From: an uncultured Ruminococcus sp.
GTDB lineage: Bacteria > Bacillota > Clostridia > Oscillospirales > Ruminococcaceae
Reading direction: 5' to 3'
DNA length: 64,000 nt
Assembly: GCA_949291125.1 (NCBI GenBank)
Contig: CASEUJ010000040.1
Span: 1 to 64,000 of the forward strand
Made by a program: the position numbers and the translations under genes
The notes under the pieces: model-generated
Told to the model about the DNA's origin: nothing
Databases searched by the model: none
The model's input: the letters and a program-made list of their open reading frames with translations, nothing else
Shown here: piece by piece, positions 44,218 through 63,915 of the stretch
Numbering within the stretch: position 1 is the first letter of the stretch
Layout of the letters: each line of letters begins with the position of its first letter

Positions 44218-44516
44218 GAGTCATTTTGAATTTTTCACATTCCAGAAAAATTCCGTTTAAGCTGTACTATGAATGCTGTTGGTTGCATATTATAATTAGA
44301 ATTAGAGCGTATTTACATAAAATGGATGTGTGGATTTTCGGAAAATTTTTGTCAAATATTCGAAATATATGTCAGAATTCACAGGTAGAGGTTTCGCTGT
44401 ACGAGAATTTTGAATAAGACAGACGCAGGCCGAAAAGACATACGAACCAATTCCCATTTATGAAAATGCGCTCCCAGAACATCCCAAACAAAACGCCTTG
44501 TACGCAGGAGGAAAAA
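44218..44516. other. Divergent intergenic region before the dockerin peptidase gene
   Basis: About 300 AT-rich bases. TATAAT at 44291-44296 could be a -10 for the plus-strand gene but lacks a good -35. A near-palindrome around ATATTCGAAATAT lies about 44350-44363. A GGTAGAGG stretch near 44384 resembles the start of a lysine riboswitch but the rest does not fit. No gene was recognised. Confidence 0.35.
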
Positions 44517-45485
44517 ATGCAGATCAACAGATGGATTTCTTCAGTATTCGCTATGGTAATCAGCTGCACAGCCGCCATGTATCAGACAGCATCCGCAAAT
44601 GAACTGGATCCTGGCGGCAGTGCAGCAAAAACCGCGATCGAAACCTATAAAACGTGGATGCAGTTTGCACAGCCGGATGACCAGACACCCGCGATCGATA
44701 CAGACGGCTGTCTGAACTATGCGCTTGCCAAAATGGCTGTGCGATATAACCTTCCGATCGATGGAGTATCTCTTCTGGATGATTCCTATACATACTACAC
44801 CGTTTTTTCTCAGATGCTTGATACAGCTTCCACCACAAAAATGCAGTATATGGCAGATACATTTTCTGACAATCTGACATATGAAGAACCCATCTTATTG
44901 TCTGGAGATATAGCGTCGCGTATTGATCAGACGTATGCCATTTGTTCCGCACATGCAGGTGATCCGACTTGGTGTTACATTCTACAGATGACGACATCAT
45001 CTGGAAGCGAGCACTATATCCTGACAGATTACGTCGATTCCAAAGAAGAGCGGCTTTACCTGCTCGACTCTGGCTCACGCTATGTGCAATATCTTGGAGA
45101 TGAAAAAACGCGTGAAAAAGGATACTACATCACCGCAGTACATCCATTTCACATCCGGCATCTCTATGGTGACTGCAACAATGATGGTGCATTAACGCAA
45201 GCAGACATCACAGCGCTGTTCAAAGCGATAGACTCCGAAAAAAGTAACCTTCCTTCTTTCTACGATGCCGATCATAATGAAACTATCAATGCATCAGATA
45301 TAGTTTATCTTGCCAGAATCGTACAGGCCGAATCCAACACAACTGTCGACTGCGCCATCCAGCTTGAAAATGATACGCCCCCAATCACAACACCAGTTAC
45401 AATACTGCAACAACAACAGCCGCCGGATTTTCTTCCGGGCGGCTGGAATGATCAGATATTTCAACGTCAGCTCATGCTGCCCTGA
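44517..45485 (+). CDS. Secreted dockerin protein with papain/C39-like peptidase domain
   Basis: A 322-residue secreted protein. Signal peptide is about residues 1-27. Residues about 35-205 look like a C39-like cysteine peptidase: Cys65 in DTDGCLNYALAKMAV, His166 in SEHYILTDYVD and Asp184 in YLLDSGSR could form the catalytic set; HAGDPTWCYILQM lies before the His. Residues about 213-268 are a type I dockerin with two calcium loops (GDCNNDGALTQADITAL and YDADHNETINASDIVYLARI). A Pro/Gln-rich tail follows. AGGAGG precedes the start at 44517. The dockerin implies docking to a cohesin. Whether it cleaves peptides is inferred. Confidence 0.75.
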   Translation: MQINRWISSVFAMVISCTAAMYQTASANELDPGGSAAKTAIETYKTWMQFAQPDDQTPAIDTDGCLNYALAKMAVRYNLPIDGVSLLDDSYTYYTVFSQMLDTASTTKMQYMADTFSDNLTYEEPILLSGDIASRIDQTYAICSAHAGDPTWCYILQMTTSSGSEHYILTDYVDSKEERLYLLDSGSRYVQYLGDEKTREKGYYITAVHPFHIRHLYGDCNNDGALTQADITALFKAIDSEKSNLPSFYDADHNETINASDIVYLARIVQAESNTTVDCAIQLENDTPPITTPVTILQQQQPPDFLPGGWNDQIFQRQLMLP

Positions 45486-50913: not shown

Positions 50914-50942
50914 TTGACACCTTCCTGAAAAGCGTGTATAAT
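50914..50942 (+). promoter_or_regulatory. Consensus promoter of the cohesin-like lipoprotein gene
   Basis: Perfect TTGACA (50914-50919), 17-base spacer and perfect TATAAT (50937-50942), 39 bases before the start. Confidence 0.92.
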
Positions 50943-50981
50943 TATAGGCATATCAAACTTATATAGAAAGGAACTTGTTCT

Positions 50982-51941
50982 ATGAAATCAATTCGGGCAA
51001 GAATAATCGCAATTCTGCTGATCGGCGCAATGGGGATGGCATGCACCGCATGTGGGAGAAACTCGGATGAAAGCAGCTCGGGCGCAGAAAACAGTGCTGC
51101 TGAATCCGGCGCGGATATAGAAAATAGCGGAGATCTAACAATTGCTGAAGGCGAAATGCTCAAGCAGGATATGACCATTTCGGATTATGTTGTAGAGGAT
51201 TCGCAGTCTGATGTCCCTGTCAACCAGAATGTGAACCAGAATTCAGGCACTTCGGGAGAAAACAGCACATCGGAAGAGAACTATGTAGTCGTCACAGATG
51301 AAGCTGGGCAGGAAGTGACAGATGAAAACGGAAATGTTGTGACACAAGTCGTTACTGGTGGCAATTCCGGCGGCAGTGGCAATAACAATAATAGTTCTGA
51401 CGGCAACAGCGGAAATTCAAGCGGCAGCAGCGATAACAGCAATGGCGGCAACGACAATTCGTCGAATGGTAACAACGAAGGCAGTGACGGCAATACATAC
51501 ACACCAAGCATCGTCGGCAAACTGCTCTATTGGTTAGATATGTCCCAAAGCAGAGATTATGTCTTTAACGGCGACTTTGTGGATGTCACATTTCGCGTCA
51601 AGGATGATGCGCCGGACGGCAATTATACCATCGGCATTGGGGAATGTGACTTTGCAAACTGGGATGCTGAAACAGTTACATATACCACTGTAGACGGCGA
51701 TCTTGCAATCGGCAGCGCACAACAGAAGGAAACCGGGACGCCGGGCGATGACGGCACAATCAAGCTTGTCTGTGAATCTACTTCTGCACAACAGGGCGAA
51801 GAGGTTACTGTACGCTTTACAATTTCCGACAACCCCGGAATTGTAGGTCTTATCTTCCGCTTTACATTTGACCAAAACGCACTGGAATTTGTGGACTATA
51901 ATGTCGGAGAAGATTGTGCAGAATTCATTTCACTCGCTTAA
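50982..51941 (+). CDS. Lipoprotein with cohesin-like halves in reversed order
   Basis: A 319-residue surface lipoprotein. The signal ends at Cys21 or Cys24 (GMACTACG). A long Ser/Asn/Gly linker spans about 25-170 (SSGSSDNSNGGNDN). Residues about 172-247 resemble the C-terminal half of a cohesin-type domain (LLYWLDMSQ, VDVTFRVKDDAPDGNYTIGI, TTVDGDLAIG). Residues about 265-319 resemble the N-terminal half (STSAQQGEEVTVRFTISDNPG, FRFTFDQNALEFVDYNVG), then the protein stops. The order is thus swapped, as in a circular permutation. It may hold dockerin enzymes on the cell surface. Strong promoter and AAAGGAAC site; a terminator follows. Confidence 0.65.
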   Translation: MKSIRARIIAILLIGAMGMACTACGRNSDESSSGAENSAAESGADIENSGDLTIAEGEMLKQDMTISDYVVEDSQSDVPVNQNVNQNSGTSGENSTSEENYVVVTDEAGQEVTDENGNVVTQVVTGGNSGGSGNNNNSSDGNSGNSSGSSDNSNGGNDNSSNGNNEGSDGNTYTPSIVGKLLYWLDMSQSRDYVFNGDFVDVTFRVKDDAPDGNYTIGIGECDFANWDAETVTYTTVDGDLAIGSAQQKETGTPGDDGTIKLVCESTSAQQGEEVTVRFTISDNPGIVGLIFRFTFDQNALEFVDYNVGEDCAEFISLA

Positions 51942-51978: not shown

Positions 51979-52030
51979 GCGATAAAAAGCGGCAGTCGCG
52001 CCCCACGCGTAACTGCCGCTTTTTTATCGC
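51979..52030. terminator. Bidirectional intrinsic terminator
   Basis: A long stem (GCGATA and AAAAGCGGCAGT with ACTGCCGCTTTT and TATCGC) has A- and T-runs on both sides. It ends the lipoprotein transcript and would also serve a minus-strand transcript. Confidence 0.9.
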
Positions 52031-58997: not shown

Positions 58998-59025
58998 TTG
59001 ACATCACGAGATTTTATGTTATAAT
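58998..59025 (+). promoter_or_regulatory. Promoter of the GH5 endoglucanase gene
   Basis: Perfect TTGACA (58998-59003), 16-base spacer and perfect TATAAT (59020-59025). Confidence 0.9.
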
Positions 59026-59060: not shown

Positions 59061-60857
59061 ATGTTTTCATGGAAAAAACTTCTGGCGCTAGCTTCGGCAG
59101 CAGTGATTGCAGGGCTTGCAACAGGCTGTGGCTCCGGCGGAGACAGCAGCTCTTCCGCAGATGGCGAATCAGAATCTATGGCATACGACAGCGATTTCAC
59201 TATTGGTGTAGATGAAGTAGCAAAAGCCATGGGCGCCGGCTGGAACTTGGGCAACCAGCTGGAGGCAAACAGCGGTGGTCATGTAGACGAAACCGTGTGG
59301 GGCAACCCCACCGTTACACAAGAGCTGATCTCTGCAGTTGCGGAAGCCGGCTTTACCACCGTCCGTGTACCGGTCTCTTACCTGGACTACATCGATGATG
59401 AAAATAATTATACGATCGACGCCACATGGCTCGATCGTGTAGAAGAAGTCGTACAGTATTGTTACAACGAAGGACTTTATGTCATCATTAACATCCACGG
59501 TGACGGCTATAACAGTATCAACGGCGGCTGGTTTTTGGTAAACGGTGAAGATCAGGATTATATCTGCGAAAAGTATGAGGCTGTATGGACACAGATCGCA
59601 GACCGTTTTAAGGACTATGACGAACATCTTATCTTTGAATCCATGAACGAAGAATCCGACGGCACCTACACCGACCCGAACCCGGATTACTACGCAAATC
59701 TCAATACCTACAATCAGATCTTTGTGGACACTGTTCGCGCAAGTGGCTCGAAGAACACCCATCGCTGGCTGTTAGTACCGGGCTGGAATACCGATATCAA
59801 CTATACCGTTGGTGATTATGGTTTTGAAATGCCCACCGACGAGAACTGCACTGCTGATGAAAGCCGCATGATGCTCTCAGTACACTATTACACCCCGTGG
59901 GATTATTGCGGCGAGGAAGACCTAAAGACCATCCTTTGGGGCGCATATGGCACAGAGATGAAGGATACTTACGGATTCCCGGCTATGAATCTGGCCAAGT
60001 GGGGGGACGAGGCATACTTAGACGATCTGTTCCAGCAACTATATGACAAATTTGTGTCAAATGATATCCCGGTGGTCATTGGCGAGTATGGCTGTATCGA
60101 TAAAACTTCGGCATACCCGGATTTCAGCGGTGAGATCCAGGGCAACCGCGCATACTTCAATGGCTATGTGGCTGGTAAGGCTGCATCCATGGGCATGATC
60201 CCAGTATACTGGGACAATGGATACAACGGTGTTTATGGTTTTGGACTGTTCGATAGAAACACACTGGAACAGACTCAACCGGAAATCATCAGTACAATCA
60301 TCGAAGCGGTGAAAAATCAGGATCCGCAGGCAGGTATGGATGTCCGAATTGAAACAACGGTTGAAACCATAGAAGAAGCGCACGCATATCTCGGAATCCA
60401 GACTGAGGTGTTCACCTTCCGCAATTCCTGCTCGGATGCAGAGTATGGCATTGATACAGAGTATTTCAACACCCTGATCAAGTGGGGCGAAAACGATGAG
60501 ATCATTGACACCGGTGCCACATTCACCGATGCAACGATCACAGAAGACGGCACATATTCCGTTGGCGTTTCCGGCTATGACTTCTCATCTGACAGCAGCT
60601 CACTAAATATGCTCTTTGTCAGCACAGACTTTGCGTTCACTAATGACATTGATGTAACAGATGTAGTTGTGAAATGCGACGATACAGAAATTCCTGTTGA
60701 CAATCCTCTCTTGATCGCAGATGAAAACGGCAATCTCTATATCGAACTTATCAACATTTACAACACTGACCTTGCAGCACTCGACTATCAGATGCCGACA
60801 GATAGCTTAACCATCACCTTTACCATTAGCGGCATGGAAAGCGTATTGTCTGCATAA
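59061..60857 (+). CDS. Lipoprotein GH5-family endo-beta-1,4-glucanase
   Basis: A 598-residue surface enzyme. The signal ends in LATGC with lipid-anchor Cys23, followed by a Ser-rich linker. Residues about 50-405 are a GH5 barrel, close to GH5_4 by AMGAGWNLGNQLEAN. Acid/base Glu197 lies in ESMNEES and nucleophile Glu342 in VVIGEYG; VRVPVSY and VHYYTPW line the cleft. Residues about 410-598 form a beta-rich module (AYLGIQTEVFTFRNS onward) that could bind carbohydrate; its family is not recognised. Substrates likely are cellulose, mixed-link glucan or xyloglucan. It carries a lipid anchor instead of a dockerin. GGAGG precedes the start. Confidence 0.9.
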   Translation: MFSWKKLLALASAAVIAGLATGCGSGGDSSSSADGESESMAYDSDFTIGVDEVAKAMGAGWNLGNQLEANSGGHVDETVWGNPTVTQELISAVAEAGFTTVRVPVSYLDYIDDENNYTIDATWLDRVEEVVQYCYNEGLYVIINIHGDGYNSINGGWFLVNGEDQDYICEKYEAVWTQIADRFKDYDEHLIFESMNEESDGTYTDPNPDYYANLNTYNQIFVDTVRASGSKNTHRWLLVPGWNTDINYTVGDYGFEMPTDENCTADESRMMLSVHYYTPWDYCGEEDLKTILWGAYGTEMKDTYGFPAMNLAKWGDEAYLDDLFQQLYDKFVSNDIPVVIGEYGCIDKTSAYPDFSGEIQGNRAYFNGYVAGKAASMGMIPVYWDNGYNGVYGFGLFDRNTLEQTQPEIISTIIEAVKNQDPQAGMDVRIETTVETIEEAHAYLGIQTEVFTFRNSCSDAEYGIDTEYFNTLIKWGENDEIIDTGATFTDATITEDGTYSVGVSGYDFSSDSSSLNMLFVSTDFAFTNDIDVTDVVVKCDDTEIPVDNPLLIADENGNLYIELINIYNTDLAALDYQMPTDSLTITFTISGMESVLSA

Positions 60858-60957: not shown

Positions 60958-63915
60958 TTAGTTCAGAATCCGTATCAGTTCATTTGCCACAAGTTGTGCG
61001 ACTGCACTTGCACCGGTTTCGGTGAAGTGAGTCATGTCAGTATCAGACAATTCTGTAGAGATCAGATGATAAGTATACGCCGTATCGTAACCAATGGCGT
61101 TATAATGCGCTACCATCAATGCATTCAGATCGATATATGGAACCTGATAATATGCTGCAATCTGTTTTATAGCATCGCAGTAATTCTGATAGCTGCCCTC
61201 AAACTGTCCGGTGGCGGCATTATATGCCTTAAGTCCCAGAACCGTTGTCACTAGTACCGGCGTACCTCCTTTTTCAAGTGCTCCCTCAATATATTTGGCA
61301 ATGTAGAATTCAAAACTTCCCTCTGTTCCAGGTACACTGCCACAAACCGGTGCATAACGTTCCGCATTGTTATAAGCAGAGTCGTTGATGCCAAACTGAA
61401 CTAACAGATAATCTCCCGGCTGCATCTCATCGAGGATTGCATCGAGTCTGCCATTATCATAAAAGCTCTTGGAACTTCTACCAGCAATTGCATGATTGGA
61501 AACGGTATAGCCTTCCGGCAAATAATTTTCCAGATACGCACCCCATCCTTGCTGTGGTGCATAGCTTGCACGATAAGTCTGTACAGTTGAATCACCTGCA
61601 ATAAAGATCGTTGTATCTGACGAAGGCGTCGGATCCGGTATGGGATCTGACTGCGGTGGGATATAGGTCTCGGCGATTGGCTCTTCTGTCTGCTCGAGAT
61701 AGAGCGTATCAAAATTCGGAGCACCCTCCTCTACCATCGACGTCATACGGATCACATTTTCTCCGGCTTTCAGCGGAAGTACAATGCCGCGTTCGCTCCA
61801 TGTCGTCCAGCTGCCTGTAGTCAAAAAGTCCTGCATCCAATAGTCTTTTGCACCGTTGACTTCAATTTTCATGGCACGGTTTATATTACTGCCATTTGCT
61901 GTGCGGAAAGAACAGAGATAGTTGCCGTCCTCCGGCACATTCACATTCCATTCCAAAAAACTGCCAACACAATTATCAAGATTCACATATGCCTCATCGG
62001 TAAAGCCGGCATTGACTGATTCTGTTACTCCACGGCAGAAGGATGCATCAATCGCATAATACAATGCACTTTTTTTCTCATTTGCGGCAAATGACTTCTG
62101 ATTTAACAGATACTGCTGCATTGCCACGCAATCAGCAAGCCCAACTACACCGTCTGCGTTAGTATCTGCGAATCGACGCTCTGCACGTGTCAGATGCGGT
62201 ATGAATACCTGTTGACGCATTAAGGCGAAATCAATACCGTTTATTTGTCCATCCTGATTTAGATCCCCCAAAATACCACCTGGTTCCCCAGAAGCAAATG
62301 TCACCGGTTCTAGCGTCCATGCCTGGCACGCATGACCATTGCGTTCCCACTGCTGCACATTTGCACCGCTCTCTGTGTTAGCGTTCTTGACTTCCACGCA
62401 CCGTGCATCCTGAGAAGATTTTGTAACAATGCAATAAGAGCCATCCGAATTCTGAAGAAACTTAAACTTTTGTGCATCGGCATAAGTATTCGACCAGATG
62501 CCAATATTGGTGCCATTGTCCGGTGCACCATAAGCAAGATCAAGCAGATAAGTTTCACCCCCACTGAGGGCGTTGTAAACTTGATAATACCCATCAGGAT
62601 CTGCCTGAACGCGCCAGAGATACGCTTCATCAAGCCGATTACAAAGCTGTTGAGAAACATTTGCGCCATCTGCACCAACGCCACCCTCTACTGCCATGTA
62701 TAGCCCACTATTCTGATTGCGTAGCAAATACCATGTGTTTTCTGTAATTTCTGCACCGACCTCCGGCTCAGTCGCCCGATCCCATGCAATGGCATTTGCG
62801 GCAAGTTCTGCCAGTTTCATCGCGCCCTGGCGATTGGGATGCAGCGTGTCATTCTCCATATAAAGTGCAGTCGTTGCCTCCTGACCAATGGAAACACAGT
62901 AGTCAAAGAACAGGCGAAATAGATCCAGCACTTCAACGTCTTGTTCTGTGCCGATCTGATCCAGCGTACTGCCAAACCATCTGCCGGTGAGATTCGGATG
63001 CTCTGTGATGTCGTTGGCACGCCCTTGTTGTTTGATAAGAATCACGCGCATACCTTTTGCTTTTGCGCGCTGTACCATGTCTGTGACGACCGTATAATAT
63101 TCCTCTGCATTGGAATAGTTGGTGTCATTGATGCCGATCGAAATGATGTAAATATCTCCAGATTTCCCATATGTTTCAATGACATCGAACTGTCCTGCCT
63201 CGACAAAGCCCTTGGCATATTGCCCGCTTGCCGCCATGTTGCGTACCTGCCATTTGTTGGTATCGAGGAGCTGCGGCAAAACCTGTCCCCAGCCGGCCTG
63301 AACGCTGGTATCCAGCGGATAGTAATTGCAAACCGTAGAATCGCCGCACATCCAGATCGTCGGCGGCAGCTGCGTTTCATTCGAAACCCATGTGATTTCT
63401 AATGTGCTGATCGAAAAGGCATAGCCCTCTTTCCCGGCAGCAGCACGAATGTTCAGCTGTCCGTCAGTGATTGGCAAAAGAATCGAATCTTTCGCCAGAT
63501 CGCCGGTCATATTGACGATCTGAAGCATACCCTCCATGTAAATGCTGGTGCGGTTGGTGTTGCCAAGTGTGACTGTTATCTGATAAAGTCCGTTCGGCAA
63601 ATCCACATCAAACGTGTTGCTTGCGTTTTTCGTATCTGTGAACTGTACGGCATCGCTGTATACGCCGCTTCCGGAAGCCGCAACATCCCGGACACCTGCA
63701 GTGCTTCGAAAGCCATAGCCCAGCGTTGCATCATAGCCTTGTGCCGCACTGACGGAGGTATAACCGTTTTCTACCACCTCACCAAAGTCAAACATCCAAT
63801 TCGAGCTTGCTGCTGATACAGTCCCTGGTAGATACCCCGTCAGGTGAAATCCAAATAACACCATCATCAGACAGAGCAGCCATGCGAAAATCCGTTTACC
63901 CATTGTAAGTTTCAT
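60958..63915 (-). CDS. Secreted two-headed SGNH (CE12-like) esterase with ricin lectin, dockerin and CBM
   Basis: A 985-residue secreted protein. Signal peptide about 1-36. Residues 38-180: beta domain starting MFDFGEV, common before rhamnogalacturonan acetylesterases. Residues 185-380: first SGNH domain, Ser193 in GDST, SIGINDTNY, Asp356/His359 in NDTLHPN. Residues 392-545: ricin-type beta-trefoil (QQLCNRLDEAYLWRVQ). Residues 548-604: dockerin with loops GDLNQDGQINGID and ADTNADGVVGLAD. Residues 615-745: CBM35-like. After a Pro linker, 768-985: second SGNH domain, Ser776 in GDST, FGINDSAY, Asp960/His963 in DMTHF. It probably deacetylates pectin. AGGAGG lies seven bases before the start. Confidence 0.88.
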   Translation of the reverse strand: MKLTMGKRIFAWLLCLMMVLFGFHLTGYLPGTVSAASSNWMFDFGEVVENGYTSVSAAQGYDATLGYGFRSTAGVRDVAASGSGVYSDAVQFTDTKNASNTFDVDLPNGLYQITVTLGNTNRTSIYMEGMLQIVNMTGDLAKDSILLPITDGQLNIRAAAGKEGYAFSISTLEITWVSNETQLPPTIWMCGDSTVCNYYPLDTSVQAGWGQVLPQLLDTNKWQVRNMAASGQYAKGFVEAGQFDVIETYGKSGDIYIISIGINDTNYSNAEEYYTVVTDMVQRAKAKGMRVILIKQQGRANDITEHPNLTGRWFGSTLDQIGTEQDVEVLDLFRLFFDYCVSIGQEATTALYMENDTLHPNRQGAMKLAELAANAIAWDRATEPEVGAEITENTWYLLRNQNSGLYMAVEGGVGADGANVSQQLCNRLDEAYLWRVQADPDGYYQVYNALSGGETYLLDLAYGAPDNGTNIGIWSNTYADAQKFKFLQNSDGSYCIVTKSSQDARCVEVKNANTESGANVQQWERNGHACQAWTLEPVTFASGEPGGILGDLNQDGQINGIDFALMRQQVFIPHLTRAERRFADTNADGVVGLADCVAMQQYLLNQKSFAANEKKSALYYAIDASFCRGVTESVNAGFTDEAYVNLDNCVGSFLEWNVNVPEDGNYLCSFRTANGSNINRAMKIEVNGAKDYWMQDFLTTGSWTTWSERGIVLPLKAGENVIRMTSMVEEGAPNFDTLYLEQTEEPIAETYIPPQSDPIPDPTPSSDTTIFIAGDSTVQTYRASYAPQQGWGAYLENYLPEGYTVSNHAIAGRSSKSFYDNGRLDAILDEMQPGDYLLVQFGINDSAYNNAERYAPVCGSVPGTEGSFEFYIAKYIEGALEKGGTPVLVTTVLGLKAYNAATGQFEGSYQNYCDAIKQIAAYYQVPYIDLNALMVAHYNAIGYDTAYTYHLISTELSDTDMTHFTETGASAVAQLVANELIRILN

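Follow-up and report, generated by a model that had tools for sequence, protein, structure and literature searches.

We analysed a stretch of 64,000 nucleotides (hereafter the window) from the draft genome of an uncultured Ruminococcus sp. (2.2 Mb in 47 contigs, 87% complete). Its forward strand carries a gene for a chain of 319 aa, in which a lipoprotein signal is followed by a low-complexity linker (about 150 residues) and, at the C-terminal end, by a domain of some 140 residues. The gene and the features in and around it are as follows.

50914..50942, + strand: promoter TTGACA-17-TATAAT, 12 of 12 consensus positions, from a sequence scan
50967..50973, + strand: ribosome-binding site AAAGGAA, read from the sequence
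50982-51941, + strand: open reading frame of the permuted-cohesin lipoprotein, ATG start, 319 aa
50982..51053, + strand: lipoprotein signal peptide with probable lipidated Cys24 (TAC, followed by G), read from the sequence
51054..51518, + strand: Gly/Ser/Asn/Asp low-complexity linker containing VVVTDEAGQEVTDENGNVVTQVV, read from the sequence
51519..51713, + strand: first part of the domain, cohesin C-terminal half, strands 6-9 (PF00963 positions 91-135; AlphaFold2 strands)
51714..51755, + strand: linker of about 14 residues from strand 9 to strand 1 (sequence and AlphaFold2 model)
51756..51908, + strand: second part of the domain, cohesin N-terminal half, strands 1-4 (PF00963 positions 2-54; AlphaFold2 strands)
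51909..51941, + strand: short C-terminal tail and stop
51979..52030, + strand: likely terminator, an inverted repeat with a T-run, found by eye

A motif like GAAAGG also precedes most homologues of the gene. The N-terminus carries a lipobox, by which the predicted product is classed as a bacterial lipoprotein, and so do 37 of the 38 related reading frames whose N-termini are complete (33 recognised by pattern, 4 by eye; the exception is L060). A stretch of the type V-V-T-D-E-x-G-x-x-V-T-D-E-N-G was also seen near the ends of D-alanyl-D-alanine carboxypeptidase-like proteins (L019, L025, L027, L028 and L030; identity read from the sequence); as the lipoprotein has the same stretch, it appears to be a linker motif common to different surface proteins. 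The likely terminator has an 8-bp G+C-rich core that extends if a one-base bulge is allowed, and it falls outside the list of our automated hairpin scan, which took loops of 3-8 only. A second cohesin continuing downstream of the stop was considered and rejected, because the likely terminator lies there and no further cohesin match was found.

Half order in sequence profiles and the predicted fold

The chain was originally predicted to carry the C-terminal half of a cohesin, a short linker, the N-terminal half and then a stop, and the peptides cited for this occur in that order within 50982-51941. The Pfam family PF00963 matched the C-terminal 149-aa fragment in two stretches with a total of 42.4 bits, placing fragment residues 91-141 on profile positions 2-54. 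When the earlier half was searched alone, residues 26-69 of its 86 aa fell on positions 91-135 (E 0.008, 16.8 bits, under the cut-off of 24.1); the whole protein scored 32.6 bits, above that curated cut-off. The usual order of a cohesin, N-terminal half then C-terminal half, was absent and is reversed here, so we class the domain as a circular permutant of the cohesin and not as an ordinary member of PF00963. Exchanging the halves produced a single contiguous Pfam match over positions 2-135, with 46.8 bits against 42.4 in natural order, and two other family members gained likewise (44.1 against 38.7 bits, positions 2-137; 54.4 against 49.3 bits, positions 2-116). When a profile was built from 11 exchanged sequences and searched against the PDB, 25 sequences matched at E<=0.01, the best being 4ums (E 3.4e-11, positions 8-145 of 149). 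The profile aligned end to end in 15 of them; the other 10, including the R. flavefaciens chains 5m2o, 5m2s, 5aoz and 5lxv, span one half only. The names of 23 of these chains identify them as scaffoldin, anchoring or cohesin; the other two, 5nrk and 5nrm, bear the depositor name 'Endoglucanase' and are titled cohesin complexes in the Foldseek listing. In contrast, a natural-order profile of 39 unexchanged sequences gave 24 PDB matches, with every best stretch confined to one half. No NCBIfam family scored above its cut-off with the five family members searched.

AlphaFold2, run with 39 sequences, predicted one compact domain (pLDDT 95.5, pTM 0.88) with strands at fragment residues 7-15, 27-36, 43-49, 64-73, 90-99, 104-112, 119-127 and 131-138, short strands being merged or omitted in this list. 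By the sequence matches, these correspond to cohesin strands 6, 7, 8, 9, 1, 2, 3 and 4. The original prediction had expected a nine-strand jelly-roll, which has to be corrected, as strand 5 is absent from the model at the new chain ends; the comparison is one of strand order. The domain starts and ends in the model at the place of canonical strand 5. Foldseek aligns chains in sequence order. Searched against the PDB, the permuted model had no hit with E<=0.001, and the best 50 matches listed do not include a cohesin. As a control we used L073, a canonical-order relative modelled from three sequences (pLDDT 69.9); despite the poorer model, all 10 of its PDB matches at E<=0.001 were structures of cohesins, and the best 50 matches listed were titled cohesins, cohesin-dockerin complexes or scaffoldin pieces. 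Since the domain opens with one half and closes with the other across a short join, the halves might also be swapped between chains, the N-terminal half of one lipoprotein completing the C-terminal half of the next to build head-to-tail surface polymers. We consider this very unlikely given that a single chain, the one arrangement modelled, was confidently predicted as a compact domain. In the single-chain permutant, the chain would enter the fold at strand 6, run through strands 6-7-8-9, pass the linker of about 14 residues and then follow strands 1-2-3-4, so that the original ends would be joined and the new ends would lie at the position of canonical strand 5. Circular permutation, as first suggested, is supported by the contrast between exchanged and natural profiles, the confident model, the contrasting Foldseek results and conservation across many species; as judged from sequence and model, the cohesin fold and its swapped order are well supported.

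Conservation, promoter and origin of the permuted family

Among 60 relatives, 19 genomes matched the window protein at E<=0.001, part of these matches (to translated frames) being short linker-like stretches of other proteins. The domain itself is present in 12 of 15 same-genus genomes, the three without it (G005, G008 and G013) having completeness values of 56, 79 and 82%. Scanning a collection of species genomes with one pattern from the first half yielded 40 loci, which, coming from a single pattern, are not a census; two of the metagenome-assembled genomes in the set were deposited under the title Alistipes. A permuted gene is present at 39 of the 40 loci, 38 by the matched gene and one at L072, where one canonical-order and two permuted genes lie side by side. 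The remaining locus, L073, is canonical, its halves matching the permuted profile in the opposite order. A swapped order at 39 of 40 related loci is not due to chance. Carriers of the family include R. callidus ATCC 27760, R. flavefaciens XPD3002 and R. flavefaciens FD-1, and identity to the window domain ranges from 25 to 81% among 38 aligned members. In all 39 scored of the 40 permuted reading frames, the stop lies 12-31 residues past a D-x-x-A-L-like motif. Across the 40 stretches compared, and leaving the gene itself aside, no gene cluster is shared by more than 11, so the lipoprotein gene looks like a one-gene unit, and conserved neighbours were dropped as a clue to function.

The original prediction had also named the promoter of this gene the strongest in the window. 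The 12/12 site at 50914 stands, yet it nearly ties with a second 12/12 promoter at 58998-59025 (spacing 16) and leads it on spacing. The latter precedes the gene 59061-60857, which encodes a cellulase-like (GH5-like, read from the sequence) lipoprotein and is thus another lipid-anchored product of the region with a consensus promoter. In each of the 31 relatives examined, out of 40 reading frames, a site matching 11 or 12 of 12 positions with spacing 17 was found no more than 250 bases before the chosen start. With the search extended to 500 bases, 36 of the 37 permuted loci that have upstream DNA contain the pattern TTGACW-N17-TATAAT, L072 being the one without it; left out of this count were L049 and L069, at contig ends, and the canonical L073. 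For comparison, 30 of 550 other reading frames at the same loci (at least 150 codons, spurious ones included) have it within 250 bases upstream, half the window used for the family genes. The conserved near-consensus promoter suggests that the gene is probably expressed strongly and constitutively.

These data also bear on whether the domain is the decayed remnant of a gene that once held two tandem canonical cohesins. Such a deletion would leave exactly a C-terminal half followed by an N-terminal half, making it a plausible origin, and tandem canonical cohesins (G094 and G097) give the same pattern across their junction. However, the open frame, the boundaries, the strong promoter and the lipobox are conserved over 39 loci at the identities given above, and the AlphaFold2 fold is confident, which leaves present-day decay next to no likelihood; decay or frameshift was ruled out by the conserved frame, ends and promoter. 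At L116 (genome G134), as at L072, a canonical-order lipoprotein adjoins a permuted one, so that the permuted form may plausibly descend from a canonical lipoprotein cohesin; the adjacent pairs, L072:7586-10468 and L116, are possible relics of the rise of the permutation. We built trees that combine permuted domains, with their halves exchanged, and canonical ones, first from 35 + 35 rows, with 12 near-copies left out, and then from 35 + 25 rows, with ten long canonical branches left out; they required 4 and 3 label changes, respectively. One origin of the permutation was not rejected (AU p 0.473) and is compatible with the trees without being established by them.

Dockerins, cohesins and the proposed role of the lipoprotein

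Two dockerin proteins had been announced in the window, and Pfam located both.

45165..45317, + strand: dockerin of the protein 44460-45485, candidate partner (Pfam)
62104..62271, - strand: dockerin of the GDSL-domain protein 60958-63915, candidate partner (Pfam)

The N-terminal part of 44460-45485 reads as cysteine peptidase-like; Pfam finds in this protein the dockerin and EF-hands below cut-off. The same contig carries six dockerin matches above cut-off (G000:C40:45165-112807), four of them beyond the window. Across the genome there are 73 dockerin matches at E<=0.01, a few within one frame, and 66 of them exceed the cut-off. Pfam cohesin matches in this genome comprise the lipoprotein gene, C15:147226 (above cut-off) and C43:20300 (below). 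The latter two belong to proteins (L102 and L103) that carry a dockerin C-terminally and lack a clear anchor; L102 ends in LPYTGE without a hydrophobic sortase-type tail and L103 has a weak lipobox-like AVSC in its signal, so their freedom from an anchor is not certain. In the same genome, the exchanged profile found only the two halves of the lipoprotein gene and missed both Pfam-found cohesins, for which reason we abandoned the idea of using it to detect canonical cohesins with greater sensitivity. G001, G004 and G006, of the same genus and at least 97% complete, each have one canonical and one permuted cohesin by Pfam alongside 68, 79 and 49 dockerin matches; in G001, a further match of half length came up with the exchanged profile (C6:28747, E 2.3e-4). 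Other same-genus genomes are richer in cohesins, with up to 11 matches in G012. As Pfam is described as overlooking divergent ruminococcal cohesins in the available part of PMC11557425, our cohesin counts are a minimum.

We then related the domain to dockerin content across the bacterial family, in 197 genomes that include the window's own; 23 of them are dockerin-rich (at least 31 dockerin matches, about the level at which the count per genome is capped). Carriers were defined by a single A2 match over at least 110 positions in a frame of at most 361 aa, at E<=1e-6, weaker copies falling outside the count; G094 and G097, confirmed on checking to be tandem canonical cohesins, were left out, as was G190 (431 aa) on length alone. 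The permuted domain occurs in 18 of the 23 dockerin-rich genomes and in 0 of the 174 others (Fisher p 2.4e-21, which overstates independence because the genomes are related), or, by genus, in 10/15 versus 0/110. The dockerin-rich genomes without a detected copy are G074, G094, G141, G153 and G195. Within the family, L069 (FD-1) has a dockerin match on the same chain as the permuted cohesin at 27.0 bits, above the cut-off of 22.9, and L060 has one at 19.8 bits, below it. Both (L060:9416-10426 and L069:38-1021) place an N-terminal dockerin before the permuted cohesin, a possible new adaptor layout.

The co-occurrence with dockerin-rich genomes and the two dockerin-bearing relatives, one below cut-off, suggest a role in tethering dockerins. 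In our model, the long flexible linker of a membrane lipoprotein would present a naturally circularly permuted cohesin, which would bind the dockerins of secreted carbohydrate-active proteins and hold these proteins, one per receptor, at the cell membrane. Canonical cohesins dock through the sheet 8-3-6-5, strand 5 being part of the docking sheet. If the same sheet is used, the permutation moves the tether to the sheet edge and removes strand 5; with the tether shifted to the strand 5/6 edge, the docking face would be presented and pulled in another direction. We take Asn37 and Asp39 to be the type I contacts of the C. thermocellum cohesin; in an alignment with 1ohz their positions are Gly and Ile in the window domain, which is therefore expected to differ from type I in specificity. 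The new chain ends at the docking sheet and the loss of type I contact residues would also fit a cohesin fold that no longer docks and binds, for example, cell-wall glycan, plant polysaccharide or another surface protein, and genomes rich in ordinary cohesins, such as G155, carry a copy too. However, only dockerin-rich genomes among the 197 carry the domain, apart from an uncounted G210 copy (a contig-cut first half, L118, in a genome with 21 dockerin matches), two relatives are fused to a dockerin (that of L060 below cut-off), and, in 39 rows read by eye, the residue in strand 3 that corresponds to type I Asp39 is I, V, L, M, F or C, compatible with a protein-binding face. We therefore regard a non-docking fold as unlikely, and consider it likely that a naturally permuted cohesin holds dockerin proteins at the membrane, the docking part being what we infer. 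The permuted lipoprotein may be the missing dock for dozens of enzymes in Ruminococcus-related fibre degraders of the gut. More tentatively, in the R. callidus-like lineage it could be the main surface receptor for 40-120 otherwise orphan dockerins. If true, this would amount to scaffoldin-free display, with each enzyme held singly by a lipid-anchored permutant, and would give one answer to why some ruminococci keep dozens of dockerins yet hardly any cohesins.

Comparison with known cohesin systems

Pfam reads half a cohesin in this domain and Foldseek, with the AlphaFold2 model, none, so that counts of ruminococcal cohesins may be too low. According to the portion of PMC5301203 available, 19 cohesin modules of FD-1 were selected, putative ScaJ1-2 and ScaO were named, and the putative cohesins ScaK, ScaL, ScaM1, ScaM2, ScaN and ScaP were left unselected as too divergent. 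The available portion of PMC4081043 gives R. flavefaciens strains 1-3 single cohesins each, without a dockerin and fused to an unknown region, and describes R. albus as dockerin-rich yet cohesin-poor. The divergent FD-1 cohesins or these single R. flavefaciens cohesins may include members of the permuted family. The permuted lipoprotein is a candidate receptor for orphan dockerins in cohesin-poor species; the state of R. albus poses a related puzzle. The available portions of PMC5301203, PMC4081043, PMC11557425, PMC2930009, PMC2721979 and PMC5359413 make no mention of circular permutation in cohesins, and titles and abstract openings in the openly licensed literature showed nothing relevant on permuted cohesins; as far as that literature was searched, a cohesin circularly permuted in nature would be without precedent. 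Permutation changes the point at which the docking pair is held and pulled, and so bears on cellulosome mechanics and on designer scaffolds.

The window domain has strand motifs in common with canonical cohesins (PF00963; C. thermocellum CipA, R. flavefaciens Sca), and its exchanged halves match solved cohesins, but its halves are swapped and it has no predicted strand 5, the new ends lying there. With a single permuted cohesin and a lipid signal, the protein is not a scaffoldin, which has several cohesins, or a cohesin with a dockerin or carbohydrate-binding module. In ScaC-type adaptor scaffoldins, a cohesin and a dockerin share one chain, and L069 and L060 likewise combine the two; however, their dockerin is N-terminal and their cohesin permuted, whereas the window protein has no dockerin. 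Another system close to the window protein is R. flavefaciens ScaE, described in the available part of PMC4081043 as a sortase-anchored surface cohesin that fixes dockerin proteins to the cell. The window protein would do the same, but with a lipid anchor in place of the sortase signal and with its domain permuted.
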